From NCBI RefSeq assembly GCF_020616155.1, contig NZ_CP085530.1, positions 3,248,501-3,312,500 of the forward strand: 64,000 nt of DNA. Direction: 5' to 3'. The translations under genes and the position numbers were made by a program. The notes below the pieces were generated by a model, which ran no database searches, had not been told where the DNA came from, and saw only the letters and a list, made by a program, of their open reading frames with translations. Origin of the DNA: Vogesella sp. XCS3 (GTDB lineage Bacteria; Pseudomonadota; Gammaproteobacteria; Burkholderiales; Chromobacteriaceae). Shown piece by piece: positions 10,026 to 63,854 of the stretch; the stretch's first letter is position 1; each line of letters opens with the position of its first letter.

Positions 10026-10034
10026 GTTGGCCGC
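10026..10034 (-). repeat. GCGGCCAAC-family repeat, intergenic copy
   Basis: Copy of the recurrent 9-mer (GTTGGCCGC on the + strand) placed directly behind the last stop codon of the nuo operon and just before its terminator hairpin. Confidence 0.7.
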
Positions 10035-10040
10035 ATGAAA

Positions 10041-10067
10041 AAGCCCGGCGCATGCCGGGCTTTTTTC
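10041..10067 (+). terminator. Rho-independent terminator of the nuo operon
   Basis: Stem GCCCGGC/GCCGGGC with a four-base loop, followed by six T residues. It stands 16 bases after the DUF2818 stop. An A-run on the other side would let it act weakly on the minus strand as well. Confidence 0.9.
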
Positions 10068-10149
10068 GTTTCTGTGCTGGCGTGTGGTATCCAGTATAAG
10101 TAGTAGTGACTGATGATCCCCGCCCCTGCGTCAGCTGTTTTCTTGTGCT

Positions 10150-10158
10150 GCGGCCAAC
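10150..10158 (+). repeat. GCGGCCAAC-family repeat, intergenic copy
   Basis: Single copy in the 296-base intergenic stretch between nuo and the acyltransferase genes. The flank extends the match to TGCGGCCAACCTT, the longer consensus. Confidence 0.7.
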
Positions 10159-10272
10159 CTTGCAGGCATGGCAAGGCTTGATGCTTGTGCGCATGGTTTG
10201 CACGGGCTGGCTAGGCAGCATGGCTGCCAGTGGGCGGGGGGATAAGGATGGAAGCTGGTGTTGATAGATCAA

Positions 10273-10303
10273 TAAAAAACCGCTGCACTGGCAGCGGCTT
10301 TTT
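10273..10303 (-). terminator. Terminator of the acyltransferase operon (minus strand)
   Basis: Stem CCGCTGC/GCAGCGG (10280-10297). Read on the minus strand it is followed by a run of T residues (complement of AATAAAAAA). It ends transcripts of the two minus-strand acyltransferase genes. Confidence 0.85.
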
Positions 10304-10321
10304 GCATGCGGGGCAGCGGGC

Positions 10322-11188
10322 TTAGTAAAAGCGCGCCTCGCCTTGCGGGCGGCTCTTGAAGCGCTTGTGCAGCCAGAAATACTGTGCCGGCGTTTCGCGG
10401 ATGCGCTCTTCCAGGAAGGCATTCATGCGGCGGGTATCGGCTACCACGTCATCCGACGGGTAGTTTTCCCACGCCGGGTAGATGTCCAGCACAAAACGGC
10501 TACCTTCGCGGCGGGCAATGGCCGGTACCACCTTGGCGCGGGCCAGCCCGGCAATGCGCGACAGGCCGGTAATGGTGGCGGCGTCGGTTTCAAAGAACTT
10601 CACGAATACCGAGTCGCGTGCGCCAAAGTCCTGGTCGGGTAGATACAGGAATGGCGTGTGGTCCTTGCGCATGGCCTTGATGATGCTGCGCAGGCTTTCC
10701 TGGCGCGACACGATGTAGGCGTTATTAAAGCGGTTGCGGCCTTTGTAGAACTGTTCGTCCAGCGTCTTGTTTTTCTGGTGCGCATAGACGCTGACCAGCG
10801 GTACTTCCAGGTTCAGACGGTAGGCGCACATTTCGAAGGCGACAAAATGCGGGTAGAACAGGATGACATCTTCGCCGGCGTCGCGCAGGCGGCTAAGGTG
10901 CTCCAGGCCGCGTATCTCGACCAGATTGCGTAACCTGTCCGGCGACGACCACCACACCACGCCGTATTCCAGTACCAGTTTCATCATTTCGACAAAGTGG
11001 GCGCGTATCAGCGTACGCCGCTGCGCCGGGCTCATGTCGGGGAAGCACAGGCGCAGGTTGATCAGCCCCACGCGACGGCGTTCTTTGGCTAGTGCGTAAG
11101 CCAGCTGGCCCAGCAGCCAGGCCAGGGCATGAATGAGGCGCAGGGGGAGCAGGTGAATCAGCCACAACAGGGCCAGAGCAAGTTTCAT
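10322..11188 (-). CDS. Lysophospholipid/lipid A acyltransferase (LpxL/HtrB-like)
   Basis: Predicted inner-membrane enzyme that moves a fatty acyl chain from acyl-ACP to a lipid A precursor or similar acceptor. The 288-aa protein has an N-terminal hydrophobic anchor (residues 3-30), the family catalytic H-x4-acid box as PHFVAFE near 113, and the later block LYLPDQDFGARDSVFVKFF near 175-195. Acid E replaces the commoner D of the HX4D box, as in many LpxL proteins. It lies 10 bases downstream of a paralogue on the same strand. Which secondary acyl position it serves cannot be told from sequence. Confidence 0.85.
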   Translation of the reverse strand: MKLALALLWLIHLLPLRLIHALAWLLGQLAYALAKERRRVGLINLRLCFPDMSPAQRRTLIRAHFVEMMKLVLEYGVVWWSSPDRLRNLVEIRGLEHLSRLRDAGEDVILFYPHFVAFEMCAYRLNLEVPLVSVYAHQKNKTLDEQFYKGRNRFNNAYIVSRQESLRSIIKAMRKDHTPFLYLPDQDFGARDSVFVKFFETDAATITGLSRIAGLARAKVVPAIARREGSRFVLDIYPAWENYPSDDVVADTRRMNAFLEERIRETPAQYFWLHKRFKSRPQGEARFY

Positions 11189-11198
11189 CAGACAGCTT

Positions 11199-12080
11199 TC
11201 ATTCGGAATCAGGGGCAGGCGCGCCAGCCGGGCGCTTGTAACGGTTGTAGCTCCACAGGTACTGGGCAGGCCAGCGGCGGATCAGGCTTTCCACTTCGGC
11301 GTTCAGGATGGCGCCATCCTGCTGCTTGTCCCCGGTAAAGGGTACGTTTTGCGGTTGGATGTGCACGGCAAAGCCTTGGCCATTCGCCAGGCGCTCGCCA
11401 GTAAACCACAGCACGGCAACGTCCTGCATCTGCGCCAGGCGCGGCAACAGGCTCATGGTAAACGCAGGTTGGCCGAAAAATGGTGCCCAGACGCCCTCGC
11501 CACTGCCTGGCACCTGGTCGGGCAGGATGATGGTGGCTTCGCCGGATTTCAGTGCCTTCATCAGCAGGCGCACACCGGCACCCGTTGCGGGGGCCGTTTT
11601 GGCGCTACCACGCGCACGGCCTTCGTTCATGATGGGTTCCAGCCAGGCCAGTTTCGAGGGCTTGTACATGGCGGTAAGCGGGAAGGGCAGGCGCGAGCTG
11701 AGATAGCGGCCGGCAATGTCGTAGCTGCCTAGGTGAGGCGTGACAAAGATCAGCCCCTTGCCTGCGGCCAACGCTGCCTCGACGTGCTCCCAGCCATGGC
11801 ATTGTTTCACCAGCGATATCATATAGGCCGGCTCACGACACCACGCTATCGATAACTCCAGCATGCCTTTACCGCTTTCTGCGGCAGACTGTTTGACGAG
11901 GGCTTGATAAAGCTGATAACTTCCAGCGATTTTACTCGTGTCGAGATTCTCGCGTATGCGCGAGCGGACACGGGGTGACGCATAATAAAGCATTCGCCCA
12001 AGCAAGCTGCCCAAGGCATGCAACACAGGCAGGGGCAGGGACGCGAGTGCCTGCAGTATCAAACGTGCGAGTCGGGTCAT
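11199..12080 (-). CDS. Lysophospholipid/lipid A acyltransferase (LpxL/LpxM-like)
   Basis: Second member of the LpxL/LpxM acyltransferase family. The 293-aa product has a hydrophobic N-terminal anchor, the catalytic HX4D box as [11 protein letters not shown] near residue 110, and the substrate block [20 protein letters not shown] near 180-200. It is the upstream gene of a two-gene operon and overlaps no neighbour. Its start lies 67 bases from metK, which is divergent. The pair probably supplies two secondary acylations of lipid A; the order of action is inference. Confidence 0.85.
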
Positions 12081-13325: not shown

Positions 13326-13334
13326 GTTGGCCGC
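13326..13334 (-). repeat. GCGGCCAAC-family repeat, intergenic copy
   Basis: Copy just downstream of metK in the extended form AAGGTTGGCCGCA. It opens a 363-base stretch without a gene, which also holds another repeat copy and the SAH riboswitch. Confidence 0.7.
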
Positions 13335-13474: not shown

Positions 13475-13483
13475 GCGGCCAAC
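13475..13483 (+). repeat. GCGGCCAAC-family repeat, intergenic copy
   Basis: Copy in extended form (TTGCGGCCAACCTTTT) about 30 bases upstream of the SAH riboswitch. Confidence 0.7.
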
Positions 13484-15100: not shown

Positions 15101-15135
15101 ACGGGCAGGGCAGTAAAATGACCTGCCCGTTTTTG
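15101..15135 (+). terminator. Rho-independent terminator after ahcY
   Basis: Stem ACGGGCAGG (15101-15109) with CCTGCCCGT (15122-15130), followed by TTTTT. Confidence 0.9.
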
Positions 15136-15152
15136 CGGCCAACGTTGGCCGC
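15135..15152. repeat. GCGGCCAAC repeat pair forming an 18-bp palindrome
   Basis: Two copies of the 9-mer abut head to head (GCGGCCAAC then GTTGGCCGC), directly behind the T-run of the ahcY terminator. Confidence 0.8.
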
Positions 15153-20043: not shown

Positions 20044-20071
20044 GTTGGCCGCAGCCCATGCTGCGGCCAAC
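20044..20071. repeat. Inverted pair of GCGGCCAAC repeats (12-bp hairpin)
   Basis: GTTGGCCGCAGC (20044-20055) and GCTGCGGCCAAC (20060-20071) are perfect inverted copies around a 4-base loop, between hppD and fahA. No T-run follows, so it is a hairpin without the look of an intrinsic terminator. Confidence 0.8.
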
Positions 20072-20102: not shown

Positions 20103-21086
20103 ATGAAACTCGCTACCTATCAGAACCAGACCCGCGACGGCCAGCTGCTGGTAGTCAGCCGCGACCTTAGCCGTGCCGTGGCCGTGCCGCAGATTGCGGC
20201 CAACCTGCAAGCTGCACTGGATAACTGGGCGCAGGCCGAACCCAAACTGCAAGAAGTGTACGCCGCACTGAATCAGGGCGAGGTGGCTGGCGAATTCGCC
20301 TTCGACCAGGCGCGTTGCCACAGCCCGCTGCCGCGTGCTTACCAGTGGGCTGACGGCTCGGCCTACCTGAACCACGTGGAGCTGGTGCGCAAGGCGCGGG
20401 GTGCCGAGGTGCCGGAAAGCTTTTACACCGACCCGTTGATGTACCAGGGCGGTTCCGACGCCTTTCTGCCGCCGCGTGCCGGCATCCCGCTGCGCGATGC
20501 TGCATGGGGCCTGGATTTTGAGGGCGAAGTCGCCGTCGTGACCGGAGATGTACCGCTGGGTGCCGATGCGGCCGAGTGCGCCAAGCATATCCGCCTGCTG
20601 ATGCTGGTGAACGATGTGACGTTGCGCAACCTGATCCCCAACGAGCTGGCCAAAGGCTTTGGTTTCTTCCAGAGCAAGCCGGCTACCGCCTTCTCGCCGG
20701 TAGCGGTGACCCCGGACGAGCTGGGCGATGCCTGGCAAGACGGCAAGGTGCACCTGCCACTGTTGGTGGACTACAACGGCGCGTTCTATGGCAAGCCTAA
20801 CGCCGGGGTGGAAATGCAGTTCAACTTCCCGCAGCTGGTGGCACACGTTTCGAAAACCCGCGAGCTGGTGGCCGGCTCCATCGTCGGTTCCGGTACCATT
20901 TCCAACCGCGACCGCAGCGTCGGCAGCTGCTGCCTGGCTGAGCAGCGCATGATCGAGATCATCGATAGCGGCGCCGCCACCACCCCGTTCATGAAGTTGG
21001 GCGACAGCGTGCGTATCGAGATGAAAGACGGCAGCGGCGCCAGCATCTTCGGCAGCATCGAACAGACCGTGGTGCAGCATGGCTGA
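20103..21086 (+). CDS. fahA: Fumarylacetoacetate hydrolase family protein
   Basis: Probable last enzyme of tyrosine/homogentisate breakdown, splitting fumarylacetoacetate into fumarate and acetoacetate. The 327-aa product has the FAA-hydrolase fold motifs: WGLDFEGEVAVVTGDVP with metal-binding acids near 140, FSPVAVTPDELG, and GSGTISNRD near 262. It is shorter than the animal enzyme, as is usual for this betaproteobacterial type. ATG 20103 is used; an upstream open start at 20058 is unlikely. It overlaps maiA by 8 bases, which supports shared function. Other FAH-family hydrolases cannot be fully excluded. Confidence 0.88.
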   Translation: MKLATYQNQTRDGQLLVVSRDLSRAVAVPQIAANLQAALDNWAQAEPKLQEVYAALNQGEVAGEFAFDQARCHSPLPRAYQWADGSAYLNHVELVRKARGAEVPESFYTDPLMYQGGSDAFLPPRAGIPLRDAAWGLDFEGEVAVVTGDVPLGADAAECAKHIRLLMLVNDVTLRNLIPNELAKGFGFFQSKPATAFSPVAVTPDELGDAWQDGKVHLPLLVDYNGAFYGKPNAGVEMQFNFPQLVAHVSKTRELVAGSIVGSGTISNRDRSVGSCCLAEQRMIEIIDSGAATTPFMKLGDSVRIEMKDGSGASIFGSIEQTVVQHG

Positions 21087-21738
21087 TGCGGCCAACGTTG
21101 GCCGCGTGCTGTATGGCTACTTTCGCTCCTCGGCGGCCTATCGTGTACGCATCGCCCTCAACCTGAAGGGGCTAGCGTACCGGCAGGCGCCCGTGAGCCT
21201 GGTAAAAGCCGAGCAGCGCAGCGCCGACTTTCTGGCATTAAACCCGCAGGGCCTGGTGCCGGCACTGCAGGATGGCGATGTGCTGCTGACCCAGTCGCTG
21301 GCCATTTGCGAATACCTGGACGAAGCCTATCCGGACACCGTGCAACTACTGCCTGCCGACCCGGCACAGCGTGCTCACATACGTGCCGTTGCCCAGGCTA
21401 TCGCCTGTGACATCCACCCGGTAAACAATCTGCGCATCCTGAACTACCTCAAGACGGAGCTGGGGCAGGATGAGGTTGCGCGTAATAGTTGGTACCGGCA
21501 TTGGGTGCAGGAAGGCTTTGCCGCGCTGGAGCAGCAGCTGGCGGCCAGTGCAGGGCAGTACTGCTTTGGCGACAGCATTACGCTGGCGGATGTTTGCCTG
21601 CTGCCACAGGTGTTCAATGCCCAGCGCTTCAACGTAGACATGGCGCCGTACCCCAGGCTGGCCGCCATTGCCGACGCTCTGGCTGCGGTGCCTGAGTTTG
21701 CCGACGCACACCCGTCGCGCCAGCCGGACGCAAACTGA
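21079..21738 (+). CDS. maiA: Maleylacetoacetate isomerase (zeta-class glutathione transferase)
   Basis: Glutathione-dependent isomerase converting maleylacetoacetate to fumarylacetoacetate. The 219-aa protein has the zeta-class signature SSAAYRVRIALNLKG near residue 15, where the Ser-Ser-x-x-x-R motif binds glutathione, then NPQGLVPAL and SLAICEYLDEAYP. The C-terminal helical domain is complete. The start overlaps the end of fahA, so the two are translationally coupled. Unusually, the first codons contain a palindromic pair of the GCGGCCAAC repeat. Confidence 0.94.
   Translation: MADAANVGRVLYGYFRSSAAYRVRIALNLKGLAYRQAPVSLVKAEQRSADFLALNPQGLVPALQDGDVLLTQSLAICEYLDEAYPDTVQLLPADPAQRAHIRAVAQAIACDIHPVNNLRILNYLKTELGQDEVARNSWYRHWVQEGFAALEQQLAASAGQYCFGDSITLADVCLLPQVFNAQRFNVDMAPYPRLAAIADALAAVPEFADAHPSRQPDAN
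21088..21105. repeat. GCGGCCAAC repeat palindrome inside the start of maiA
   Basis: Perfect 18-bp palindrome GCGGCCAACGTTGGCCGC. It codes for residues 4-9 of MaiA (A-A-N-V-G-R), which precede the conserved domain. Confidence 0.8.
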
Positions 21739-21790: not shown

Positions 21791-22745
21791 ACGTCTGCAA
21801 GCTGGGCAATATCCGCTAGTCTCTATCGATGCGATCTAATAACCCAGTTCTTTCTTGGTAGGTCAGAGCGCTACTTGCATACGCTATTGCTGACTTCGTC
21901 ATTCCAACGCTTTGTGCTGGTAGTGGTTATTGAACCCAATCCACTCGCCATCACAGGGCTGGTGTGTGTCCAGCCTGTAAAACGATATTGCACTTTCGTC
22001 GATCGCCCATTCAACCTATCGCTCCGCGCCTGCGTATACGATGTGATGAACCCCTGTTGTGGGCCGTATCGCCGTTCACCAGTGTAGAGTAGCTGCAGCC
22101 GGTAAATATCAAGCCGTTGTCCCGGTACCGCAGCTGCTGTTGCTGCGCTCGGCCCGGGCAGCCAAAGCGAACGACACTAGCCACGTTCGGTACCCCCACA
22201 TTGCCGCCCCACGACGAAACCACCAGTATCGCCAGATGATGGAACGCAGTGCCGGTCTTTGCCCCGCCATTGCCCTGCTCACGGCCCATGCTTGCGGTGA
22301 GGCTTGAACCACGCCGCAGTATTGCCATCACCAGTGAGATGCGGCAGCTTGCATCAGGGCCGGTGAGCAGTCTTGGTGCCCGCGGTGGCTAGTGCCACCG
22401 TTGATGCGCTGTCGATAGGGCATCAAACAGGTCAGGAGACGTTTGTTACTTTGTGGGACGATTTGGTGGTGTAAAAGCAAGTGCAGGCAGACGGCGAATG
22501 TCTTTGTGCCGGATGACACGAGTGGTAGTGGCAAGTCAGTAGCGGCTGGAGGTCGCGTGCTGCCAGGCTGCACTCATAGTGAGTCAGTATCTGCGGCCAA
22601 CCTCTATGTTACTCAGGTGCTGTCGGGTGCAAGCGCCACAGGGTAATCAACGCTGGTGCGAGCCGCTATGGCCGGCATAGCACCGTTACTAGCTGGCCCA
22701 CGGCAGCGGGAAATGCAGATTTTTGCGTATTTTTCCATAAATGCC
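21791..22745. other. About 1 kb without a recognisable gene
   Basis: The short open frames here have no recognisable family and no ribosome sites, and codon use looks random. One GCGGCCAAC repeat copy lies at 22593-22601. The stretch may be decayed sequence between the tyrosine genes and the tRNA genes. I see no RNA gene or clear mobile-element end. Confidence 0.5.
22593..22601 (+). repeat. GCGGCCAAC-family repeat, intergenic copy
   Basis: Last copy before the 26-kb stretch in which I find none. The flank TGCGGCCAACCT fits the extended consensus. Confidence 0.7.
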
Positions 22746-22774
22746 TTGACGCCATTGGCTGCGTCTGCTTTAAT
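22746..22774 (+). promoter_or_regulatory. Promoter of the tRNA-Phe pair
   Basis: TTGACG (-35), 17-base spacer, TTTAAT (-10), ending about 38 bases before the first tRNA. It is close to the sigma-70 consensus and suitably placed for both tRNA genes. Confidence 0.75.
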
Positions 22775-22812
22775 GCGTGTCTCTGATGCAACGCGACAGC
22801 GTTGAGCAAGAA

Positions 22813-22888
22813 GGCCAATTAGCTCAGTTGGTAGAGCAACGGATTGAAAATCCGTGTGTCCTTGGTTCGATTCCGAGATTGGCCACCA
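22813..22888 (+). tRNA. tRNA-Phe (GAA), copy 1
   Basis: 76-base cloverleaf with the CCA end encoded. Acceptor arm GGCCAAT/ATTGGCC, D-arm AGCTCAGTTGGTAGAGC, anticodon loop TTGAAAA with GAA at 22846-22848, and T-arm GGTTCGATTCC. Confidence 0.97.
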
Positions 22889-22922
22889 AAAAACTTGCAG
22901 GTACCATACCGGTCAGCAGACT

Positions 22923-22998
22923 GGCCAATTAGCTCAGTTGGTAGAGCAACGGATTGAAAATCCGTGTGTCCTTGGTTCGATTCCGAGATTGGCCACCA
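22923..22998 (+). tRNA. tRNA-Phe (GAA), copy 2
   Basis: Identical in sequence to the first copy, 34 bases downstream, CCA encoded, anticodon GAA at 22956-22958. The two are probably one transcript ending at the terminator that follows. It marks the border of the insertion-sequence and polysaccharide island. Confidence 0.97.
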
Positions 22999-23005
22999 AA
23001 TATAA

Positions 23006-23036
23006 AACCCCAGCTAGAAATAGCTGGGGTTTTTTA
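23006..23036 (+). terminator. Rho-independent terminator after the tRNA-Phe pair
   Basis: Stem AACCCCAGCTA/TAGCTGGGGTT around a short loop, followed by TTTTTTATT. Confidence 0.92.
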
Positions 23037-23109
23037 TTCCAAGAAGCGGCTGGTCTATGGTGTGCTGTAATTTTCCAATATAAACCAGCTCGGGTCATAA
23101 TTTGCACTG

Positions 23110-23895
23110 ACCTCAGACTGGACTATCCCTGGTGCAGTAAACGAACTCCTGCCACACGCCAAGGAGCGCTCAAGGCCTCGGGACTGGTGCAGCCACAAGT
23201 GACTGTGGCGGCGGTCAGCTTCACTGCAGTGGATTCCGCGTCGACTCATGTTGGGTTCAAGATCGTGGGAGAGGCAGAAACGGCGCCAATCATCACTGCG
23301 ATATGGCGAGCCCTGATCTGAATGGACCAGCACGCGTCCTGTAGATTCGCGCCCCCACGGCGCCACCAGCAGAGCGTCCAACGCCAATTCGCAGCTCAAT
23401 ATCGGTGTCATCGACCAGCCGACCCACCTTGCGTGAGAGCAAGTCGATCGCCATCGCCAGATAAAGCCAGCCTTGCCAGGTACTGATGTAAGTAATGCCC
23501 ATTACCCAGGGGCAGGCTGTGACGTCGTGAACTCGCGATTCAGATGGCTGGGGGCCAGACCAGCGATAGGTCGTGGCGCCTTATAGCCGCGCTGTGTCTT
23601 GGTGCTGTGTTGGCGCATGATTCGGGCGACACAGTGTTTGCCGCATGCCTCTCTGATCTCGTATAGGTCACCCGGCACTCGGAGCGACCCATAAGCCCCG
23701 CCACTGGCTCGTCAGTGAGTCGCGAATCAACGCTAGCAATCTAGCATCTTCCTTGGAGTGATCAGACTCGGGGCGGTATAGCCATTGATAGCAGCCGGCG
23801 CGGGCAATTTGCAACAAGCAGCGCATGGTCGTCAGCGGCCAGGTATGTCGATGCTCGTTCATGAAGCGGTATCTTGCTCGGACTCCCTGGCAAAG
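23110..23895 (-). pseudogene. IS3-family transposase OrfB remnant
   Basis: Broken DDE transposase on the minus strand. Recognisable pieces, in different frames, are RFMNEHRHTWPLTTM, REACGKHCVARIMRQHS, GITYISTWQGWLYLAMAIDL and VLVHSDQGSPYRSDDW then EPNMSRRG. At least two frameshifts separate them. The first catalytic Asp region reads VMGITY where the family has TDITY, and the region with the catalytic Glu, after SRRG, is gone. It is therefore inactive. It belongs to the same element as the orfA remnant at 23859-25323. Confidence 0.85.
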
Positions 23896-23907
23896 TACCG
23901 CGCGGCT

Positions 23908-23915
23908 TTTTTTTA
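23908..23915. repeat. Left target-site duplication of the ISL3-type element
   Basis: TTTTTTTA. The partner copy at 25076-25083 is TCTTCTTA; six of eight bases agree, and 8 bp is the usual duplication length of ISL3-family elements. Confidence 0.7.
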
Positions 23916-25075
23916 GATCCTTCATGGAATAGTGGGAACGTGATGTAAACGCCAGACGTGAGAACGGCGCTATCAGGTAGGTTGTTTATGCGACCAAACC
24001 AGCCAAGCCACACCGCCTTCTCATGCCCGATGATATGCGCACCTTCCGTTCTGGGAAGGCTTCACCGTCACTTCCTTCCAGCGCCCCGCCGATGCCCTCC
24101 ATCTGGTCCTGGAGCCAACACCCGATATGCCACGCCGTTGCAGTGGCTGCCAGCGCGTAGGCAGCCCCTTGCATAAGTCCCGCTGGCGCACTCTACGCGA
24201 CCTGCCCATCCTCAGCCACCCCGTCTGGCTGTGCGTCAGGCTACGCCGCGTGCGCTGCCCGTACTGCGGCCCGAAGCAGGAATAAGTTCGCTGGCTCGGC
24301 CGCTATACCCGGCTGACCTACCGTCTGGCCGAGACCGTCGCGCACTGGTGTAGCAAGCTGCCGATTCGTCACGTCGCCGCGCTGTTTGGCTTGCACTCAG
24401 ACACTATTCGGCTGCTGGAGCTACCCCGCCTTGGGCACCTTGTCCGAGCCTGAGCCGCGCCACCTGGTGATGGACGAATTTGCGCTCTACAAAGGCCATC
24501 GCTACACCACCGTCGTCATGGACATCAATACCGCCTTCGACCTGGCGGTGAAGGCGCACTGCCCGAAGGCACGGGTGGTCTACGACCTGTTTCACGTGGT
24601 GGCCAAATACGGGTGGGAGGTGATCGACCGGGTGTGCGTGGACGAGGCCAACCGTCTGTGCGATGACCGCTCGGCCCGTCGGGTGATCAAGCAGTCGCGT
24701 TGGTTGCTGTTGCGCAATACGGAGAACCTGAAGAACGACGGGCAGCGCATCCATTTGGGCGAGTTGCTGGCAGCCAATCAGGACTTGGCGACGGTGTACG
24801 TGATGAAAGCGGGGCTGAAGGAGACGGGTTGGGCGTGGCTGCGGGCGTGGAAAGACTGGCTGGCGCAAGCCAAGGAAAGCGGTATCGAATCATTGGCGGC
24901 TATCGGGCTACTGGCGGGACATTCTGAGCTGGGTGCGCTGGCCGATGCACCCCGGCCAGCTGGAAGGCCTCAACAACCGGATCAAGGTGATGAAGCGAAT
25001 GACCTATGGTTACCGGGACCGCCAGTACTTCTTCCTGAAGATCAAAGCCGCCTCCCCGGTAATCCGTGAAGAACC
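23916..25075 (+). mobile_element. ISL3-family insertion sequence, decayed, inserted in an IS3 orfA
   Basis: About 1160 bp. The left end (GATCCTTCATGGAATAGTGG) and right end (inverse GGTTCTTCACGGATTACCGG) are imperfect inverted repeats, and the element is flanked by degenerate 8-bp duplications. It holds one broken transposase gene. The continuity of the interrupted orfA across the two borders fixes the ends to the base. Confidence 0.85.
24024..25069 (+). pseudogene. ISL3-family transposase, multiply frameshifted
   Basis: Family features in order: FWEGFTVTSFQRAPADALHL near 24053, a CxxC zinc-finger region around 24130-24280, LVMDEFALYKGHRYTTVVMD at about 24465, DLFHVVAKYGWEVIDRV, and QLEGLNNRIKVMKRMTYGYR near 24958, ending in GNP-stop. 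Defects: an early frameshift, an in-frame TAA at 24284, a shift with a small deletion near 24420, another near 24925, and one near 25053. Not functional. Confidence 0.88.
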
Positions 25076-25083
25076 TCTTCTTA
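25076..25083. repeat. Right target-site duplication of the ISL3-type element
   Basis: TCTTCTTA, directly after the right inverted repeat; partner of 23908-23915. Confidence 0.7.
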
Positions 25084-25375
25084 GAATATCTCGTTCTTCT
25101 GTGCGACGCGGTTGCGCCTTCCGGCGAAGGATTTCGCTCGTGGCCTCGATCAGCTCGGCAGTCTGTTTCTCTGAGTTATCCCGGGCGACTGCTGTCACCC
25201 ATTTGTACAGGCTATGGCTGGAAACCCCAAGCCGGACTGAAGCCTCGGCCACAGAGTAGCTGCGTTCAGTGGCCTGCTTGACGGCTTCATCTTTGAATTT
25301 TGGGGGGAATGCTGTGTGCTCATGGATATTCTTTCATGCTAAAGTCATGGCGCAGAGTTGCCTACAGGAGCCGGG

Positions 25376-25951: not shown

Positions 25952-26050
25952 CTTCCATCTTGAGTGCTTGTTCGCATCGTCGCTGATCGGTGTGCGAGAC
26001 GCCAGTATTTCAACAGCCTGCTAAGTATCTAGCCTCGGACGATTAGGTAC

Positions 26051-26284: not shown

Positions 26285-26323
26285 TAAAAACCTGCACAGG
26301 TCATAATTCACACAGGAGCACGT

Positions 26324-47492: not shown

Positions 47493-47547
47493 CGTCTTTT
47501 ATATACCCAACCGAGCGTGTGATTCGAATATTTTAGGTTCTATAGCG

Positions 47548-48078: not shown

Positions 48079-48100
48079 CCATTTAGCAAGGTTAGCTCTC

Positions 48101-48128
48101 CAAAAATCGCCCCTTGGGGCGATTTTTT
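48101..48128. terminator. Bidirectional terminator at the end of the polysaccharide operon
   Basis: Stem AAAATCGCCCC/GGGGCGATTTT with a TT loop, followed by T residues on both strands. It separates gmm from the converging marC gene and marks the right edge of the island. Confidence 0.92.
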
Positions 48129-48730
48129 TATGCCAGTTTTTTGATGTAAGCCGCCACGCCACCTAGCAGCATTTCGATGGAGATGGCGGTCAGCACCAGA
48201 CCCATCAGGCGTTCCAGGGCGGTGATGGCCTGTTCGCCAAGGGCGCGGTGGATTTTGCCGGAGAACAGGAAGACCAGCAGCGTTACCAGCATGGTGAGGG
48301 TGAGGGCGCCTATCCACTCCAGCATGCGTTCCGGTTCGCGGGTGGACATCAGCAGCACGGTGGCCATGGCGGAGGGGCCGGCGATCAGCGGTACGGCAAT
48401 CGGAACGATGAAAGGCTCGCCGTGCATTTTGTCGCCGCCAAACATGCTGCCTTCGCCGGGGAAGATCATCTTGATGGCGATCAGGAACAGGATGACGCCG
48501 CCAGCGACGCGCAGGCTTTCGTCTGTGAGGTGCATCAGCTCGAGGAAGCCTTTGCCAAAGAACATGAAGGTGAGCAGTACCGCAAAGGCGATAAAGCATT
48601 CGCGGAAGACTACGCGGCGGCGGCGTTCCGGCTTCACCTGCTTGAGGGCAGAAATGAAGAGGGGAATGTTACCCAGCGGATCGGTAATCAGGATCAGCAG
48701 GATGGTGGCAGACAGGAAAGAGGTATCCAT
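48128..48730 (-). CDS. MarC family integral membrane protein
   Basis: 200-aa protein with six predicted membrane segments, from ATG 48730 (the frame stays open upstream but MDTSFLSATILLILITDPLG is the family start). Conserved blocks: LITDPLGNIPLF, FRECFIAFAVLL, LRVAGGVILFLIAIKMI and VPIAVPLIAGPSAMATVLL. The MarC/YhgN family has no firmly established function; an older link to multiple antibiotic resistance has been disputed. Confidence 0.9.
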   Translation of the reverse strand: MDTSFLSATILLILITDPLGNIPLFISALKQVKPERRRRVVFRECFIAFAVLLTFMFFGKGFLELMHLTDESLRVAGGVILFLIAIKMIFPGEGSMFGGDKMHGEPFIVPIAVPLIAGPSAMATVLLMSTREPERMLEWIGALTLTMLVTLLVFLFSGKIHRALGEQAITALERLMGLVLTAISIEMLLGGVAAYIKKLA

Positions 48731-48820
48731 AGCTTTTACAGTATGCGGTATCCGGTAAAAAACAAAGTCTGGGCTAGCGTTGCCGGCAGCAGTCATCGTC
48801 GAGGCTGATCGCCGGCAAGG

Positions 48821-48829
48821 GTTGGCCGC
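48821..48829 (-). repeat. GCGGCCAAC-family repeat, intergenic copy
   Basis: First copy seen after the 26-kb island gap, upstream of marC (CAAGGGTTGGCCGCAGG). Confidence 0.7.
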
Positions 48830-48952: not shown

Positions 48953-51900
48953 TTACTGACCGCTTGTGTCGTCTTTTTCCTTGCGGTTAGAACCTTCTAC
49001 CAGTGTGAAGGCGTAAACGCGGCATTCCAGTGCGCCGTTGTACAGCATGGGGCGGCTGTCTGCGGCCAGGCGCATCAGGCTGGGCAGGCGGGTGTCTGCC
49101 GTCATCAGGTGGGCGGTCCAGCCGGCAAACTGGCGCTTGAGCCAGGTGGCCAGCTGCGGGTACAGCTCGGCCAGGCTGTCTTGTTCGTCCAGGCGGATAC
49201 CGTACGGCGGGTTGCACACGATCAGGCCTTGCTTGGCGGGTGCGGCCAACTCGGTGGCGTCGCCCACGCTCAGGGTAACGAGCTCGGCCAGGCCGGTGCG
49301 TTCCAGGTTGCGGCGGGTGATGTCTACCATGTGGGCGGCGCGGTCGTTACCGTACAGCGGCAGGGTAGCCAGTTTACGGCTGGCCAGTTCTGCGTCGTTC
49401 TTGATGCTGTGCCATAGCAGATCGTTGTGGTTTTTCAGCAGTTCGAAGGCAAAGCCACGGTCGCGGCCAGGGGCGCGGTTCAGGGCGATGTCGGCGGCCT
49501 CTACCAGGAAGGTACCGCTACCGCACATCGGGTCCAGCAGTGGCTGGGTGCCGTTGTAGCCGGCCAGCAGCAGGATGCCGGCTGCCAGGTTTTCGCGCAG
49601 CGGGGCTTCGCCTGTTTCGTCGCGCCAGCCGCGTTTGAACAGCGCTTCGCCGCTGGTATCCAGGTAGATCTGCACGTCAAAGCCGGACAGGAACACACGG
49701 ATGCGCATGTCCGGGGTGCGGGTATCTACGCTGGGGCGCTCGCCGCCCAGGTCGCGGAAGCGGTCGCAGATTGCGTCTTTCACGATCAGCGATACGTAGT
49801 CGATGCTCTTCAGGCGGGCATGGCCATCGGTCTTTACCTTGATGGTGCAGCCCACATCAAACAGCTCTGGCCAGTTAATGCCCTTGGCTAGGGTGTAGAT
49901 GTCGCGCTCTTCGCGGAAGGTGCCCATGGCCAGCTGCATCAGCAGGCGGCTGGCGGTACGCGAGTGCAGGTTCACGCGCATCATCACTTCTTGCGTGCCG
50001 GTAAAGGCCACGCCACCGTCGGTAAGTTGCAGCTCGGTGCCGCCTTGCAGGGCAATTTCTTCGCCCAGCAGTTTTTCCAGGCCACGCGGGCAGCTGGCAA
50101 ACAGGGCGAATTCGCCGTCTTTCAGCGTACGTGGCTGGGCTTTGACGAAGGGCGTGCGGCCAACCTTGTCGCCACCGCCTTGCTTGCCAAAACCTTGGCC
50201 TGGTTCACGGGCTTCGCCTTTGCCAAACAGCGTGCGGGCGGGGGCCGCATCACGCTGGAAGCCGCCTTCGCGACGCTCGCCGCCAAAGCGTGGTTTGTCG
50301 AAGCTGCGCTCTTCGCGCTGGAAGCCGCCTTCACGGCGCTCACCGCCAAAGTGCGGTTTGTCGAAGCTGCGCTCTTCGCGCTGGAAGCCGCCTTCGCGAC
50401 GCTCGCCGCCAAAGCGTGGTTTGTCGAAGCTACGCTCTTCGCGCTGGAAGCCGCCTTCGCGACGCTCGCCGCCAAAGCGTGGTTTGTCGAAGCTGCGCTC
50501 TTCGCGCTGGAAGCCACTTTCGCGGCGTGGTTCGTCGCTACGTGGCGTCGCCGGGGTGTCGATGTCGCTGACGCGCTTCAGGAAGCTGGTACGCACCGGG
50601 CCGCCAGCCGGTTTGTTTTCTACCGGTGCCTGCTCGTTGTCGCGTGGTTCTGGTGCCACGTAGTCGGGGTGGGCTTTGCCGCCACGGCCCGCTACGCGGT
50701 CACGGGTGTAGGTTTTTTGCGGGCGCTCTGCGGGTGCGGCTTCCGGAGCCGGGGCGTAATCTTCCGGCTTGACCGAAAACAGTGTGCGCGGCTTGTCCAG
50801 CCCGTGTTCGCCACGTGGCTGGTGATCGTTGGGTTGCTCGCGGCGGAAATCGCCTTCGCGTTTGAAGCCGCTGTCGCGATTGCCTTCGAAGCGTGGTTTG
50901 TCGAAGCTGCGTTGTTCGCCGCGTGGCTGGAACTCGCCATCGCGCTTGAAGCCGCCTTCGCGGTTTTCACGGCTACCTTCGAAGCGTGGCTTGTCGCCGC
51001 CGAAACGCGGTTTGTCGAAGCTGCGTTCGCCACGTGGCTGGAACTCGCCGTCGCGTTTGAAGCCGCCTTCACGGTTTTCACGGTTACCTTCGAAGCGTGG
51101 CTTGTCGCCGCCGAAACGCGGTTTGTCGAAGCTGCGCTGTTCGCCGCGTGGCTGGAACTCGCCGTCGCGCTTGAAGCCGCCTTCGCGGTTGTCGCGGTTA
51201 CCTTCGAAGCGGGGCTTGTCGCCGCCGAAACGTGGTTTGTCGAAGCTGCGCTGTTCGCCGCGTGGCTGGAACTCGCCGTCGCGTTTGAAGCCGCCTTCAC
51301 GGTTTTCACGGTTACCTTCGAAGCGTGGCTTGTCGCCGCCGAAACGCGGTTTGTCGAAGCTGCGCTGTTCGCCGCGTGGCTGGAACTCGCCGTCGCGTTT
51401 GAAGCCGCCTTCGCGGTTGTCGCGGTTACCTTCAAAGCGGGGCTTGTCGCCGCCGAAACGTGGTTTGTCGAAGCTGCGCTGTTCGCCGCGTGGCTGGAAC
51501 TCGCCGTCGCGCTTGAAGCCGCCTTCACGGTTGTCGCGATTGCCTTCAAAGCGGGGCTTGTCGCCGCCAAAGCGCGGTTTGTCGAAGCTGCGCTGTTCGC
51601 CGCGTGGCTGGAACTCGCCGTCGCGCTTGAAGCCGCCTTCGCGGTTGTCGCGGTTACCTTCAAAGCGGGGCTTGTCGCCGCCGAAACGCGGTTTGTCGAA
51701 GCTGCGTTCGCCGCGCGGCTGGAACTCGCCATCTCGCTTGAAGCCGCCTTCGCGGTTGTCGCGATTGCCTTCAAAGCGGGGCTTGTCGCCGCCGAAACGC
51801 GGTTTGTCGAAGCTGCGTTCGCCACGTGGCTGGGCATCACCGTCACGACGATGCTCGCCGCCGAAGCGTGGTTTGTCGAAACCACGGCTGTCGTTGCCAA

Positions 51901-52141: not shown

Positions 52142-53200
52142 GTGTCTACGCTAGAAACCCAGTTTGGCAGCCGCCTGGTGGCGTGGCAGCGCCTGTATGG
52201 CCGCCACGGCCTGCCGTGGCAGGTGAGCGATGCCTATCGTGTGTGGCTGTCCGAGATCATGCTGCAGCAAACGCAGGTCAGCACCGTGCTGGGCTATTAC
52301 CCGCGCTTTCTGGCGCGTTTCCCCGACCTGGCCACCTTGGCCGCAGCGCCGGTGGACGACGTGCTGGCACTGTGGAGTGGCCTGGGCTACTACACCCGGG
52401 CGCGCAACCTGCACAAGGCCGCGCAGATGGTGATGCACGATTTTGGTGGCGAGTTTCCGCGGCAGCGCCAGGATATCGAACGCCTGCCCGGCGTGGGGCG
52501 CTCTACTGCTGCCGCCATTGCGGCGTTTGCTTTTGGCCAGCGCGAAACCATTCTGGATGGCAATGTCAAACGCGTGCTGACGCGTTGCTTTGGTGTAGAA
52601 GGCTACCCCGGCGACAAGCCAGTAGAGGCGCAGCTGTGGCAGCTGGCCGAGCGGCTTACTCCCGCCAGCCGTGCCGATATGGTGCCGTATACCCAGGGGC
52701 TGATGGATCTAGGCGCTACCGTGTGTACGCGCAGCAAGCCTGCCTGTACCGCCTGCCCGATGCTGGATGGCTGTGTGGCGGCCAACAGTGGCCGTACTGC
52801 CGAGCTGCCGCAGCGCAAGCCGAAAAAAGCCGTGCCCGAGCGCGAGACGGTGATGCTGATCGCCCTGCACCAGGGCAGTGTGCTGCTGCAGCGCCGCCCG
52901 TCGGTAGGTATCTGGGGTGGGCTGCTCAGCCTGCCGGAGTTCGATAGCACGCTGGCGGTAGATGGCTGGCTGGCGGCCAACGCCGTGGGCGACCTGTTGC
53001 CCGCGTGGCCCGAGCTGGTGCACGTGTTTACCCATTTCCGGCTCACCATCACGCCGCAGCCGGTACAGCTGCAGCAGAGGTTGGCCGATAGCTGTCATGA
53101 GGACAGCTGGCAGTGGCTGCCGCTGGCCGACGCGCTGGATGCCGGCGTGCCGGCGCCGGTGCGCAAGCTGCTATTGCAAGCCCTGGCGATTACCCCCTAA
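52142..53200 (+). CDS. mutY: A/G-specific adenine DNA glycosylase
   Basis: Base-excision repair enzyme removing A mispaired with 8-oxoG. The 352-aa protein has the helix-hairpin-helix region LPGVGRSTAAAIAAFAFGQR with the catalytic Asp after it (ILDGNVKRVLTR), the [4Fe-4S] cysteines C-x6-C-x2-C-x5-C in CTRSKPACTACPMLDGC, and a C-terminal MutT-like domain (HQGSVLLQRRPSVGIWGGLL). Starts at GTG 52142. Divergent from the RNA methyltransferase gene. Confidence 0.95.
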   Translation: MSTLETQFGSRLVAWQRLYGRHGLPWQVSDAYRVWLSEIMLQQTQVSTVLGYYPRFLARFPDLATLAAAPVDDVLALWSGLGYYTRARNLHKAAQMVMHDFGGEFPRQRQDIERLPGVGRSTAAAIAAFAFGQRETILDGNVKRVLTRCFGVEGYPGDKPVEAQLWQLAERLTPASRADMVPYTQGLMDLGATVCTRSKPACTACPMLDGCVAANSGRTAELPQRKPKKAVPERETVMLIALHQGSVLLQRRPSVGIWGGLLSLPEFDSTLAVDGWLAANAVGDLLPAWPELVHVFTHFRLTITPQPVQLQQRLADSCHEDSWQWLPLADALDAGVPAPVRKLLLQALAITP

Positions 53201-55454: not shown

Positions 55455-55463
55455 GCGGCCAAC
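55455..55463 (+). repeat. GCGGCCAAC-family repeat, intergenic copy
   Basis: Copy 8 bases after the relA stop, followed by a near-inverse partner CCTGGCCGC, forming an imperfect palindrome. Confidence 0.65.
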
Positions 55464-56349: not shown

Positions 56350-56383
56350 AAGGTTGGCCGCAGCGATGCGGCCAACCTTTTTT
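56350..56383 (+). terminator. deoC terminator made of an inverted pair of GCGGCCAAC repeats
   Basis: AAGGTTGGCCGCA (56350-56362) and TGCGGCCAACCTT (56367-56379) form a perfect 13-bp stem with loop GCGA, followed by a T-run. This is the clearest case of the repeat used as a transcription terminator. Confidence 0.92.
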
Positions 56384-56491: not shown

Positions 56492-57712
56492 ATGACAAAC
56501 CGACGCGCCATCATTCTGGTACTGGATTCCCTGGGCATCGGCGCCAGTGCCGACGCCGATAAATTTGGCGATGTAGGCAGCAATACCCTGGGCAGTATCG
56601 CCCGTGCCGCCGCCAGCGGTGCGGCCAACGTTGGCCGCAGCGGTCCGCTGCAGCTGCCCAATCTGTCACGCCTGGGCTTGGGTCACGCCTGTGAACTGTC
56701 ATCCGGCTACTTCCCCGAGGGCATGGACCCGGCAGCGCCGGTAGCGGCCTACGGTTACGCCCGCGAGCTGTCCAGCGGCAAGGACACGCCGTCCGGCCAC
56801 TGGGAAATCGCCGGTGTGCCGGTGCTGTTCGACTGGGGATACTTCCACGACAAGCAAAACAGCTTCCCGCCGGCGCTGCTGGACGAGCTGGTGGCCAAGG
56901 CCGGCCTGCCGGGCTACCTGGGCAACTGCCACGCCAGCGGCACCGAGATCCTCGACCGCCTGGGCGAAGAGCACATGGCCAGCGGCAAGCCCATTTTCTA
57001 CACCTCGGCGGATTCGGTGTTCCAGATTGCCTGCCACGAGGAAACCTACGGCCTGGAGCGCCTGTACGAGCTGTGCCGCATCACGCGCGAGGCGCTGGCG
57101 CCGTACAATATCGGCCGCGTGATTGCGCGCCCGTTTGTCGGCAGTGGCAAGGGCCAGTTCAGCCGCACCGGCAACCGCAAAGACCTGGCGGTAGAGCCGC
57201 CAGCCCCCACCGTACTGCAAAAACTGGCAGAGGCGGGCGGGCAGGTGGTGTCGGTGGGCAAGATCGCCGATATCTACGCCCACGTCGGTATTACGCAAAA
57301 GTACAAGGCTACCGGCCTGGACGAGCTGTGGGATACCACGCTGGCGGCGCTGAAGACCACGCCTGGCCACAGCATCATCTTTACCAATTTTGTCGATTTC
57401 GATTCCAGCTACGGCCACCGTCGTGATGTGGCCGGCTACGCCCGTGCGCTGGAGCAGTTCGACGCACGCCTGCCCGAGCTGCTGGCCGCCATGGGCGACG
57501 ACGATATCGTGATCCTTACCGCCGACCACGGCTGCGACCCCACCTGGCCAGGTAGCGACCATACCCGAGAGCACATTCCGGTGCTGTGCTACGGCAAGCA
57601 GGTAGCGCCTGGCAGCCTGGGCGAGCGCGCCACCTTTGCCGATATCGGCCAGAGCGTGGCCAGCTGGCTGGGCGTGCCGGCCATGGCGTACGGCACGTCA
57701 TTTCTGGGCTAG
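56492..57712 (+). CDS. deoB: Phosphopentomutase
   Basis: Interconverts (deoxy)ribose-1-phosphate and -5-phosphate. The 406-aa alkaline-phosphatase-superfamily protein shows the N-terminal metal site [20 protein letters not shown] and the later [20 protein letters not shown], with Asp/His metal ligands, plus [13 protein letters not shown]. Links the nucleoside phosphorylase product to deoC. Its 5' region contains a palindromic pair of the short repeat within the coding sequence. Confidence 0.96.
56621..56638. repeat. GCGGCCAAC repeat palindrome inside deoB
   Basis: Perfect 18-bp palindrome, identical to that in maiA, encoding A-A-N-V-G-R at about residues 44-49 of DeoB. Confidence 0.8.
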
Positions 57713-57777: not shown

Positions 57778-57786
57778 GCGGCCAAC
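57778..57786 (+). repeat. GCGGCCAAC-family repeat, intergenic copy
   Basis: Single copy between deoB and deoD, directly after the probable deoB terminator. Confidence 0.65.
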
Positions 57787-59887: not shown

Positions 59888-59896
59888 GTTGGCCGC
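59888..59896 (-). repeat. GCGGCCAAC-family repeat, intergenic copy
   Basis: Extended form AAGGTTGGCCGCA between the rpsI terminator and argC. Confidence 0.7.
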
Positions 59897-61543: not shown

Positions 61544-61570
61544 ACAAACCCGGGTTTTACCCGGGTTTTG
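61544..61570 (+). terminator. Rho-independent terminator after erpA
   Basis: AACCCGGGT/ACCCGGGTT with a TTT loop, then TTGCTTTT. Confidence 0.85.
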
Positions 61571-61588
61571 CTTTTGCGGAGAAACATC

Positions 61589-62446
61589 ATGCATAACAAG
61601 ATTCCGCCCATCATTTTGCCCAAGGTGGAGTTCACCCGCGAGTTTGCGTTCAGTGAACAGGATTTCGAACGTGTACGGCAGCTGATTTACAAGGAAGCGG
61701 GCATCTCGCTGAACCCCACCAAGAAAGACATGGTGTACGGCCGCCTGGTACGCCGTATCCGCGAGCTGAAGCTGGATGGTTTTGCCGCCTACGTCGACTT
61801 TTTGCAAAGTGCGGGGGGCAAGCGCGAATTTGAGCTGTTTGTGAACGCGCTCACCACCAACCTGACGTTCTTCTTCCGCGAAGAACACCATTTCCACATG
61901 CTGGGCGACTACCTGAAGACGCTGCCGGCCGGGCAGGAAATCAGCATCTGGTGCGCGGCGTCGTCTACCGGTGAAGAGCCGTACTCCATCGCCATGACGG
62001 CGCTGGAAGCGCTGGGCGGGCGTGGCAATATCAATATTCTGGCTACCGACCTAGATACCAGCGTGCTGGAGGTTGGCCGCAAGGGCATTTACAGCGCCGA
62101 CAAGATTACCAAGCTGCCGGCCGGTTACGCCGCGCGCTACTTTGACAAGCTGCCGGATGGCAACTATCAGGCCAAGGCGCAGCTGCGCAGCATGATTACT
62201 TTCAGCCAGCTGAATCTGGTGCATAACAACTGGCCGATGCGCAAACAGTTCGATGCGCTGTTCTGCCGCAATGTGATGATTTACTTTGATCGCGATACGC
62301 AGTTTGCGGTGCTCAAGAAGTTTCACCCGCTGATCAAGCCGCACGGCCTGCTGTTTGTCGGCCACTCGGAAAACTTCTATTTCGCCTCGGACTATTTTGC
62401 CCTGCGCGGCAAGACGGTATACGAGCTGGCACGCCGCAAACCTTGA
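61589..62446 (+). CDS. cheR: CheR-type chemoreceptor methyltransferase
   Basis: SAM-dependent methylation of glutamates in chemoreceptors. The 285-aa protein from ATG 61589 has the N-terminal helical CheR domain (EQDFERVRQLIYKEAGISLN) and the catalytic domain with IWCAASSTGEEPYSIAM and ALFCRNVMIYFD near 225. No other chemotaxis genes are adjacent, so its partner system is unknown. It carries an in-gene copy of the GCGGCCAAC repeat at 62072-62080. Confidence 0.93.
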   Translation: MHNKIPPIILPKVEFTREFAFSEQDFERVRQLIYKEAGISLNPTKKDMVYGRLVRRIRELKLDGFAAYVDFLQSAGGKREFELFVNALTTNLTFFFREEHHFHMLGDYLKTLPAGQEISIWCAASSTGEEPYSIAMTALEALGGRGNINILATDLDTSVLEVGRKGIYSADKITKLPAGYAARYFDKLPDGNYQAKAQLRSMITFSQLNLVHNNWPMRKQFDALFCRNVMIYFDRDTQFAVLKKFHPLIKPHGLLFVGHSENFYFASDYFALRGKTVYELARRKP

Positions 62447-62499
62447 CGTTTACGGCAGCTTGGCATGCTGCCTGCATCGCTTTACCATGCTTGCCGGCG

Positions 62500-62522
62500 A
62501 GGCCCCTTGTGGGCCTTTTTTC
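62500..62522 (+). terminator. Rho-independent terminator after cheR
   Basis: AGGCCC pairs with GGGCCT around CTTGT, followed by TTTTTTC. Confidence 0.75.
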
Positions 62523-62542
62523 TTGTGTGCCAAGGGGGTGAG

Positions 62543-63799
62543 ATGAAGGTTGCCATACTGGGTGCCGGCATTATCGGTATTTCTACGGCGTGGTTTTTAC
62601 GCCAGGCAGGGCATGAGGTCGTGGTGGTAGACCGTGCCAGCGGCCCGGCCCGCGAGACCAGCTTTGCCAATGGCGGGCAGATTTCGGTGAGCCAGTCCGA
62701 GCCGTGGGCGCACCCGTCTACCCCGTGGCGCGTGCTGCGCTGGATGCTGCGTGAAGATGCGCCCTTGTGGTTCCGCCCGCATCTGGACCCGGCGCAGTGG
62801 CGCTGGTCGCTGCAGTTCTTGCGCGAATGCCTGCCAGGGCGCCATGGGGCCAACCTGCGCCATATGGTGGCGCTGGGGCGTTACAGCCAGCAGACCTTCG
62901 CCCAGCTGCGCCAGCAGCTGCCGTTACAGTATGCGCACCGCCAGCAAGGCATTCTGGCGCTACTATTCCAGCGCCAGGAGGTTGAGCACGCGCTGACCGC
63001 CTGCAAACTGCTGGCGGCCGAGGGCGTGACGCGCCGCGTGGTGTCGGTAGACGACGCCGTGGCCCGTGAGCCGGCGCTGGCGGCCATTGCCCCGCAGCTG
63101 TTGGCCGCTACCTGGTGCGAAAGCGACGAGTCGGGCGACGTACACCAGTTCACCTGCCAGCTGGCGGCGGCTTGTGCCGACGCGGGCGTGCAGTTTGCCT
63201 GGCACACCCGCATCAATGCGCTGCAGCCGCAGGGTGGGCGCATTGCCGGGGTGTCGGTTACCGGCGCGGATGGCCGCTTTGATACGCTGCAGGCCGACGC
63301 CTACGTGCTGGCGCTGGGCAGCCATAGCCCGCTATTGCTGGCGCAGCTGGGCCACCACATTGCGGTGTACCCGGCCAAGGGCTATTCGGCGACCTTGCCG
63401 CTGGCCAATGCCGCGCTGGCACCGCAGGTCAGCATTACCGACGAGTCGCACAAGCTGGTGTTCTCGCGCCTGGGTGACACGCTGCGGGTGGCCGGCACGG
63501 CCGAGCTGTCCGGCTACAGCAGCCACCTGAACCCCGTGCGCTGTGCTGCGCTGGTACGCCGCACGCAGCAGCTGTTCCCCGCCGCCTGCGACTGGGATGC
63601 CGCGCAGTTCTGGACCGGCCTGCGCCCGGCTTCGCCCGGCAACGTACCGTTGATTGGCCGCTATCGTTACAGCAATTTGTGGCTCAATACCGGCCACGGT
63701 ACCCTGGGCTGGACCGAGGGGCCGGGCTCTGGCCGTGCGCTGGCCGGGTTGATGAGCGGGCAGGCGCCGCAGATCGCGTTTCCGTTTTTGCACGGCTAG
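62543..63799 (+). CDS. dadA: D-amino acid dehydrogenase (small subunit type)
   Basis: FAD enzyme oxidising D-amino acids at the inner membrane, feeding electrons to the respiratory chain. The 418-aa product starts MKVAILGAGIIGISTAWFLR with the dinucleotide-binding motif and VVVVDRASGPA. It also has ETSFANGGQISVSQSEPWA and the C-terminal GLRPASPGNVPLIGRYRYSN and NTGHGTLGWTEGPGSGRAL, as in DadA. ATG 62543 follows AAGGGGGTGAG. No alanine racemase gene (dadX) is adjacent. Confidence 0.93.
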   Translation: MKVAILGAGIIGISTAWFLRQAGHEVVVVDRASGPARETSFANGGQISVSQSEPWAHPSTPWRVLRWMLREDAPLWFRPHLDPAQWRWSLQFLRECLPGRHGANLRHMVALGRYSQQTFAQLRQQLPLQYAHRQQGILALLFQRQEVEHALTACKLLAAEGVTRRVVSVDDAVAREPALAAIAPQLLAATWCESDESGDVHQFTCQLAAACADAGVQFAWHTRINALQPQGGRIAGVSVTGADGRFDTLQADAYVLALGSHSPLLLAQLGHHIAVYPAKGYSATLPLANAALAPQVSITDESHKLVFSRLGDTLRVAGTAELSGYSSHLNPVRCAALVRRTQQLFPAACDWDAAQFWTGLRPASPGNVPLIGRYRYSNLWLNTGHGTLGWTEGPGSGRALAGLMSGQAPQIAFPFLHG

Positions 63800-63845
63800 T
63801 ACGTAGCGCGGCCTGGCCATGCCGGTTTTATTGATGTGGGGCAGG

Positions 63846-63854
63846 GTTGGCCGC
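63846..63854 (-). repeat. GCGGCCAAC-family repeat, intergenic copy
   Basis: Copy between dadA and the globin gene (CAGGGTTGGCCGCG). Confidence 0.65.

Follow-up and report, generated by a model that had tools for sequence, protein, structure and literature searches.

Why should one nine-base word recur 34 times within 64 kb of a bacterial chromosome? The stretch that raises this question, called the window below, comprises 64,000 nucleotides of Vogesella sp. XCS3 (contig NZ_CP085530.1, positions 3,248,501 to 3,312,500), and the word is GCGGCCAAC, which reads GTTGGCCGC in the other orientation. A first-pass annotation of the window had described it as an element resembling a DNA uptake sequence (DUS) of an unfamiliar dialect, a reading that is supported here by the excess of the word over Markov expectations, its restriction to related genera and the presence of a ComP-like pilin. 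The motif looks like the tag that lets Neisseria single out and import DNA from their own kind, with different core letters. Judging from sequence comparisons, AG-GTTGGCCGCA is very probably the self-DNA uptake sequence of Vogesella, read by the minor type IV pilin ComP.

Copy number and form of the motif

All 34 exact copies listed by the first-pass annotation, counted over both strands, were found at their positions. In 100 dinucleotide shuffles of the window the 9-mer appeared on average 1.51 times (largest count, 5), and Markov models predict 1.5 (order 3) or 2.6 (order 4) copies. The repetition is equally extreme in the genome as a whole (3,889,382 bases, or 3.89 Mb, in two contigs), where the 9-mer occurs 3,236 times, compared to 43 times for the reversed word used as a control. 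In a 464-kb sample made up of the window and 20 spaced 20-kb stretches of contig 1, 414 copies were counted versus 17 (order 3) and 36 (order 4) expected. Longer forms depart further from expectation, with 124 copies of the 12-mer AGGTTGGCCGCA versus 0.57 and 58 copies of the 13-mer AAGGTTGGCCGCA versus 0.13 (464 kb, order 4); the window holds eight copies of the 13-mer, where Markov models of orders 1 to 4 predict at most 0.01. The excess first proposed for the window therefore holds genome-wide, and chance as the source of the repeat is ruled out by the shuffles and the Markov expectations. The outcome that the first-pass annotation had named as refuting its reading, counts near a third- or fourth-order Markov expectation, did not occur. 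The claim that intergenic copies share the longer 13-mer did not survive, as only 7 of the 16 intergenic copies and one of the 18 coding copies in the window contain it.

The consensus, AG-GTTGGCCGCA, combines a sharp nine-base core with graded flanks. Within the 464-kb sample, any single-base change in the core reduces the 11-mer GGTTGGCCGCA from 188 copies to between 0 and 6, while A is present at -2 in 56% of copies, G at -1 in 56%, and A directly after the core in 74%; outside these 13 bases the composition around the copies is nearly flat. A sharp core, graded flanks and flat surroundings give the shape of a site recognised by a protein, not that of a copied repeat.

Distribution and dialects in the Chromobacteriaceae

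The family was sampled with 61 genomes, 13 from Vogesella and 48 from nine other genus codes. Each of the 13 Vogesella genomes has 1,141-1,510 copies of the 11-mer GGTTGGCCGCA, compared to 1-22 copies in the 48 others. Related genera carry sister words, in which GTTGGCCG is followed by AA, AG or CA, the last being the Vogesella form. Counts of GTTGGCCGAR over the 61 genomes are enriched in g5 (2,017 and 1,668), g6 (744 and 2,223), g7 (1,258), g9 (1,872), g10 (1,152, 238 and 942) and the Aquitalea genome G010 (1,386). They are low in the other nine genomes of g2 (26-64), 19 of g3 (31-93), four of g4 (39-64) and Vogesella (24-59), and range from 37 to 154 in six Paludibacterium genomes (g8). Two of the latter, G040 and G043, show a weak excess over the reversed word (154 versus 34 and 130 versus 28, respectively), which may be a decaying remnant. 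Identical spoT loci name G036 as Crenobacter oryzisoli, G030 as Crenobacter caeni, G048 as Pseudogulbenkiania subflava, G040 as Paludibacterium purpuratum, G044 as P. yongneupense and G010 as an uncultured Aquitalea assembly; the spoT locus of G011 is 94.5% identical to that of Chromobacterium haemolyticum.

The dialects are clade-specific. AG follows in 37 of 46 and 12 of 15 copies sampled from the two g5 genomes, and AA in 20 of 28 sampled copies in G037, 7 of 13 in G036, 27 of 29 in G038, 30 of 43 in G045, 10 of 13 in G046 and 14 of 16 in G010. For G047 and G048 the AA label comes from the GTTGGCCGAR counts together with few copies (three of eight AA in G048, none of two in 7.7 kb of G047). 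Of 16 copies in G010 (L211-L212), eight have T at -1, an upstream preference unlike AG, and dialects may additionally vary in their 5' bases.

Beyond the family, none of the 386 genomes of other families in an order-wide draw of 399 was enriched (GGTTGGCCGMR counts no higher than 62); six Vogesella, G010 and G038 were the enriched genomes in this draw. The comparison with related Chromobacteriaceae that the first-pass annotation had recommended thus confines the motif to related genera. In non-carriers, k-mer counts revealed no replacement word of similar strength, although a sparse one could be missed in samples of this size (60 kb for Aquitalea G002 and G005, for G011, G012 and G017 of the Chromobacterium group, and for G030 and G031 of g4; 40 kb for G039; 20 kb for G042).

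Between close relatives, individual sites tend to persist. The spoT locus places the window's genome in Vogesella, its DNA being 94% identical to that of a metagenome assembly and 90% to that of V. urethralis. Motif sites are conserved in 10 of 12 cases in V. urethralis (background, the share of identical 9-mers among all those aligned, 41%), in 6 of 10 in both V. fluminis and V. indigofera (background 23%), in three of three in the metagenome assembly (background 60%) and in two of four in G059 (background 22%).

A ComP orthologue in every carrier

The ComP-like minor pilin that the first-pass annotation suggested looking for was found, outside the window, at contig 1:3,106,142. This candidate (L031, 138 residues) matches PF07963 and PF16732, a type IV prepilin signal and a pilin family, and a structure model (pLDDT 90.5) has a pilin fold. 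A sequence search of solved structures ranked all three ComP chains first (PDB 5HZ7, 2NBA and 2M3K). Foldseek, run with the model of a protein 94% identical to Vogesella ComP, returned two matches at E <= 0.001, both of them ComP, and a second structural comparison placed one ComP chain first by a wide margin, with 5HZ7 as the best fit. A ComP orthologue is present in all 23 motif carriers, and genes for ComEC and DprA are present as well. The ComP segment N-[TVA]-D-x-[GD] occurs in 18 of 19 carriers, in none of 17 non-carriers and in none of four Neisseriaceae, a pattern picked after seeing the data and among related rows; its cleanest contrast is that between G010 and four other Aquitalea.

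A GspH/FimT-like pilin gene (L037; L031:929-1501, + strand) lies directly upstream of comP, apart from the main minor-pilin clusters, and its product could act with ComP. A second pilin of the GspH/FimT family, L028, is encoded in the main minor-pilin cluster.

Placement of the copies

A rough gene caller, which called 82.5% of the 464 kb coding, placed 299 of the 414 copies in genes, 114 in intergenic DNA and one on an edge. In the window it reproduced exactly the earlier division into 16 intergenic and 18 coding copies. Window features are listed below; each line is a copy of GTTGGCCGC unless otherwise described, with the strand on which that orientation reads.

836..844, + strand, in gene
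1089..1097, - strand, in gene
1761..1769, - strand, in gene
3610..3618, - strand, in gene
6340..6348, + strand, in gene
9771..9779, - strand, in gene, full 12-mer
10026..10034, + strand, intergenic
10150..10158, - strand, intergenic, full 13-mer
11764..11772, - strand, in gene
13326..13334, + strand, intergenic, full 13-mer
13475..13483, - strand, intergenic, full 13-mer
15135..15152, abutting inverted pair (15135 -, 15144 +), intergenic hairpin
20044..20071, inverted pair (20044 +, 20063 -), intergenic hairpin
20196..20204, - strand, in gene, full 12-mer
21088..21105, abutting inverted pair (21088 -, 21097 +), in gene
22593..22601, - strand, intergenic, full 12-mer
22602..48820, no strand, copy-free stretch with surface-polysaccharide gene cluster, 47% GC overall, looks acquired
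48821..48829, + strand, intergenic
49242..49250, - strand, in gene
50156..50164, - strand, in gene, full 13-mer
52778..52786, - strand, in gene
52973..52981, - strand, in gene
55455..55463, - strand, intergenic
56353..56376, inverted pair (56353 +, 56368 -), intergenic hairpin then T run, terminator-like
56621..56638, abutting inverted pair (56621 -, 56630 +), in gene
57778..57786, - strand, intergenic
59888..59896, + strand, intergenic, full 13-mer
62072..62080, + strand, in gene, full 12-mer
63100..63108, + strand, in gene
63846..63854, + strand, intergenic

With so many copies in genes, codon usage combined with frequent Ala-Ala-Asn or Leu-Ala-Ala peptides has to be considered, and 114 coding copies do read in frame as GCG-GCC-AAC and 100 as TTG-GCC-GC. 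However, shuffling synonymous codons within genes (n = 100), which preserves the proteins, leaves a mean of 35.9 coding copies (sd 5.4, largest 48) versus the 299 observed, and 1.1 copies of the 12-mer versus 72. The 114 intergenic copies and the scarcity of the 11-mer in the 48 genomes of other genera also argue against this explanation. The earlier suggestion that codon bias towards Ala-Ala-Asn accounts for part of the count is therefore correct for about 36 of the 299 copies, a small part only, while codon usage as the main cause is refuted, with a negligible chance of being right after all.

Neighbouring copies at most 60 bases apart form 35 pairs in the 464 kb, all 35 of them inverted and none in the same orientation. 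As the first-pass annotation had stated, inverted pairs form hairpins: the five close pairs of the window fold at -15 to -25 kcal/mol, and one is followed by a T run. Hairpins of this kind, at least one of them with a T run, would be consistent with a mobile or repetitive extragenic palindromic (REP)-like repeat or a family of transcription terminators. Such an origin is scarcely credible, given that the composition is flat outside the 13 bases with no longer shared unit seen, that 299 of 414 copies lie in genes, and that most copies are single, since only 35 pairs within 60 bases occur among the 414.

DNA poor in the motif

The 26-kb island at 22,602-48,820 contains no copy of the 9-mer (Poisson P 3e-10 at the genome rate). 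GC content drops to 38-50% over most of 26-48 kb of the window, and ten proteins scanned from the surface-polysaccharide cluster at 27124-45989 include the ManC, GDP-mannose dehydratase, DegT aminotransferase, epimerase and glycosyltransferase families. The low GC, the polysaccharide gene families and the zero count together make the island look acquired. The motif is also scarce on contig 2, where four stretches (80 of 164.5 kb) hold two copies versus about 67 expected at the genome rate. This 164.5-kb contig has a GC content of 51-54% and is perhaps a plasmid or other acquired replicon.

High density combined with absence from acquired-looking DNA would also suit a signal of chromosomal architecture or repair (of the Chi, KOPS or replication type) or a highly iterated modification site, either of them unrelated to uptake. 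Oriented chromosomal signals follow the direction of replication. The 9-mer has no strand bias, with 1,656 and 1,580 copies on the two strands of the genome and 210 and 204 in the 21 sampled stretches together, counts that are pooled over both replichores. In addition, all close pairs are inverted, and the last two bases vary by genus while the pilin gene is common to all carriers. We therefore consider a signal of this kind very unlikely. The inverted pairs, the copy-free island and the near-empty contig 2 fit the reading of the motif as an uptake sequence.

Next to the island, RlmL-like methyltransferase families match the C-terminal part of the reading frame at 48953-52051 (- strand). The long N-terminal part of this frame holds two tandem arrays, one with a 114-base unit repeated 8.4 times (50887-51833) and one with a 63-base unit repeated 4.3 times (50253-50524).

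Proposed function

As an uptake sequence, the motif would mark free DNA that is bound preferentially, and presumably specifically, by ComP; the pilus would pull this DNA in, ComEC would let it through, and recombination would place it in the chromosome. With uptake biased in this manner, tagged DNA would enter more often, and copies would spread and be kept in recombining chromosomal DNA, so that transformation would be the cause of their accumulation. Newly acquired DNA would be without copies.

Comparison with known uptake systems

The uptake signal sequence (USS) of the Pasteurellaceae differs from the Vogesella motif in sequence and in host family. It is likewise a genome-wide uptake word and belongs to the same general phenomenon (PMC3630211), and a minor pilin, ComN, is its predicted receptor (PMC12616744).

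The closer parallel is the neisserial DUS. In Frye 2013 (PMC3630211), DUS and ComP are placed in the Neisseriaceae only, and eight dialects are described that share CTG at positions +6 to +8 and an A at +10, CTG being required for transformation. The same text reports no obvious DUS in five genomes outside the DUS-bearing groups (Laribacter, Lutiella, Pseudogulbenkiania and two Chromobacterium) and no ComP in C. violaceum, and concludes that the DUS system arose after that split. The Vogesella motif resembles the DUS in its 12-letter layout, a 10-mer preceded by a semi-conserved 5' AG, in C at +6 and G at +8, and in its thousands of copies, clade-specific dialects and ComP orthologue. The CA and AA dialects also share A at +10, unlike the AG dialect of g5, which has G; the host family, Chromobacteriaceae, is different. 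The form AGGTTGGCCGAA is identical to AG-mucDUS at 9 of 12 letters. Of random 12-mers compared with three DUS forms, about 0.08% score as high in register and 0.36% when shifts and both strands are allowed. We infer from this agreement a common origin with the DUS. At the protein level, L031 shares W-P-x-L-P and two C-terminal cysteines with Neisseria ComP, but is about 25-30% identical to it, has a shorter C-terminal region, and shows one apparent cysteine pair of the two; Neisseria ComP has two disulphides (PMC12061091).

As a control, the word GYCGTCTGAA was counted 2,004-4,425 times in all nine genomes of genus g53 in family f44, which we infer to be Neisseria from this count and from ComP. 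Five Chromobacteriaceae genomes examined for it show no enrichment, with 8-19 copies each. G147 and G224, which belong to other genera of f44, have only 2 and 5 copies; G224 also has a ComP-like protein and, with so few copies, may use another dialect.

A search of the literature on uptake in Chromobacteriaceae, Vogesella and Pseudogulbenkiania found no description of the motif, although subscription papers and bioRxiv lay mostly outside the search and Table S1D of Frye 2013, a list of 10-mers over-represented in the chromobacterial genomes, may print the word without a DUS label. Searches with the exact motif strings returned only unrelated sequences among the matches listed.

It is also important to note that several observations weigh against a ComP-read uptake sequence. 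The core at +6 to +8 is CCG in all three dialects, not CTG, and thus fails one defining feature of the DUS; we therefore class the motif as a new, ComP-associated variant of uptake sequence and not as a member of the CTG set. ComP orthologues extend over the greater part of the family, the Chromobacterium group included, and are also found in 34 of its genomes without the motif; ComP alone therefore does not imply the motif. Carriers and non-carriers are not distinguished by the isoelectric point of the last 115 residues of ComP, which is 7.9 in the window's species and ranges from 4.8 to 10.2 overall. PilV ranked above the other two ComP chains in the second structural comparison. A scan with PF16732 (ComP_DUS), covering 10 of the 17 pilin-like proteins, gave L031 the lowest of the scores above cut-off (32 bits), below the PilE-like L025 (81) and L030 (39). 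L025 and L030 were set aside as ComP despite these higher scores because, among solved structures, they match PilE, PilA and further pilins but not ComP. Chance alone would give roughly 22 close pairs of either kind, a number that the 35 observed do not greatly exceed; only their orientation is striking. Neither of two motif sites is conserved in the short G054 stretch (background 24%). Finally, the literature searched yielded no reports of binding, uptake or transformation for Vogesella.

Part of this evidence would suit an uptake sequence of independent origin, with another pilin as its reader (the FimT/GspH-like protein encoded beside comP or the one in the main cluster) and the likeness to the DUS due to convergence. 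Both L037 and L028 are available for such a role, FimT binds DNA in Legionella (PMC8897410), ComP orthologues exist where the motif does not, and the core differs from CTG. However, the agreement of layout and register with the DUS argues against an independent origin, and the presence of a ComP orthologue in every carrier argues against another reader. We consider this alternative improbable, if less so than the non-uptake explanations above, and retain ComP as the probable reader.

Evolution

Three changes of motif presence or absence are needed on a SpoT tree of 28 rows, a single-gene and therefore weak species tree, whose change counts cannot tell gain from loss. On this tree the CA dialect (Vogesella, support 99) and the AG dialect (g5, support 100) each form a single clade, with AA dispersed among the remaining rows. 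Such a pattern would follow from an ancestral AA dialect and loss of the motif in Chromobacterium and most Aquitalea. The dialect labels group in a similar way on the ComP tree, which has weak deep support and long rows and a wrong label for G224, where only five copies of the neisserial word occur.

These patterns suggest, counter to the published view, that DUS and ComP were present before Neisseriaceae and Chromobacteriaceae diverged. In the history that we favour by a modest degree, the chromobacterial form had a CCG core, as in AGGTTGGCCGAA, and its final dinucleotide became CA in Vogesella and AG in a further genus, accompanied by a corresponding change in the ComP segment N-[TVA]-D-x-[GD]. 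The motif would have been lost in Chromobacterium and most Aquitalea, and lost or never gained in Paludibacterium. CTG would then not be universal for recognition by ComP.

Implications

With a second set of dialects, receptor orthologues could be compared across each dialect change, motif-less relatives would serve as natural controls, and the way in which ComP reads DNA would become open to direct testing. If the reading is true, the motif would also provide a tag for transforming these bacteria, and its absence would help to recognise DNA that their genomes have acquired.

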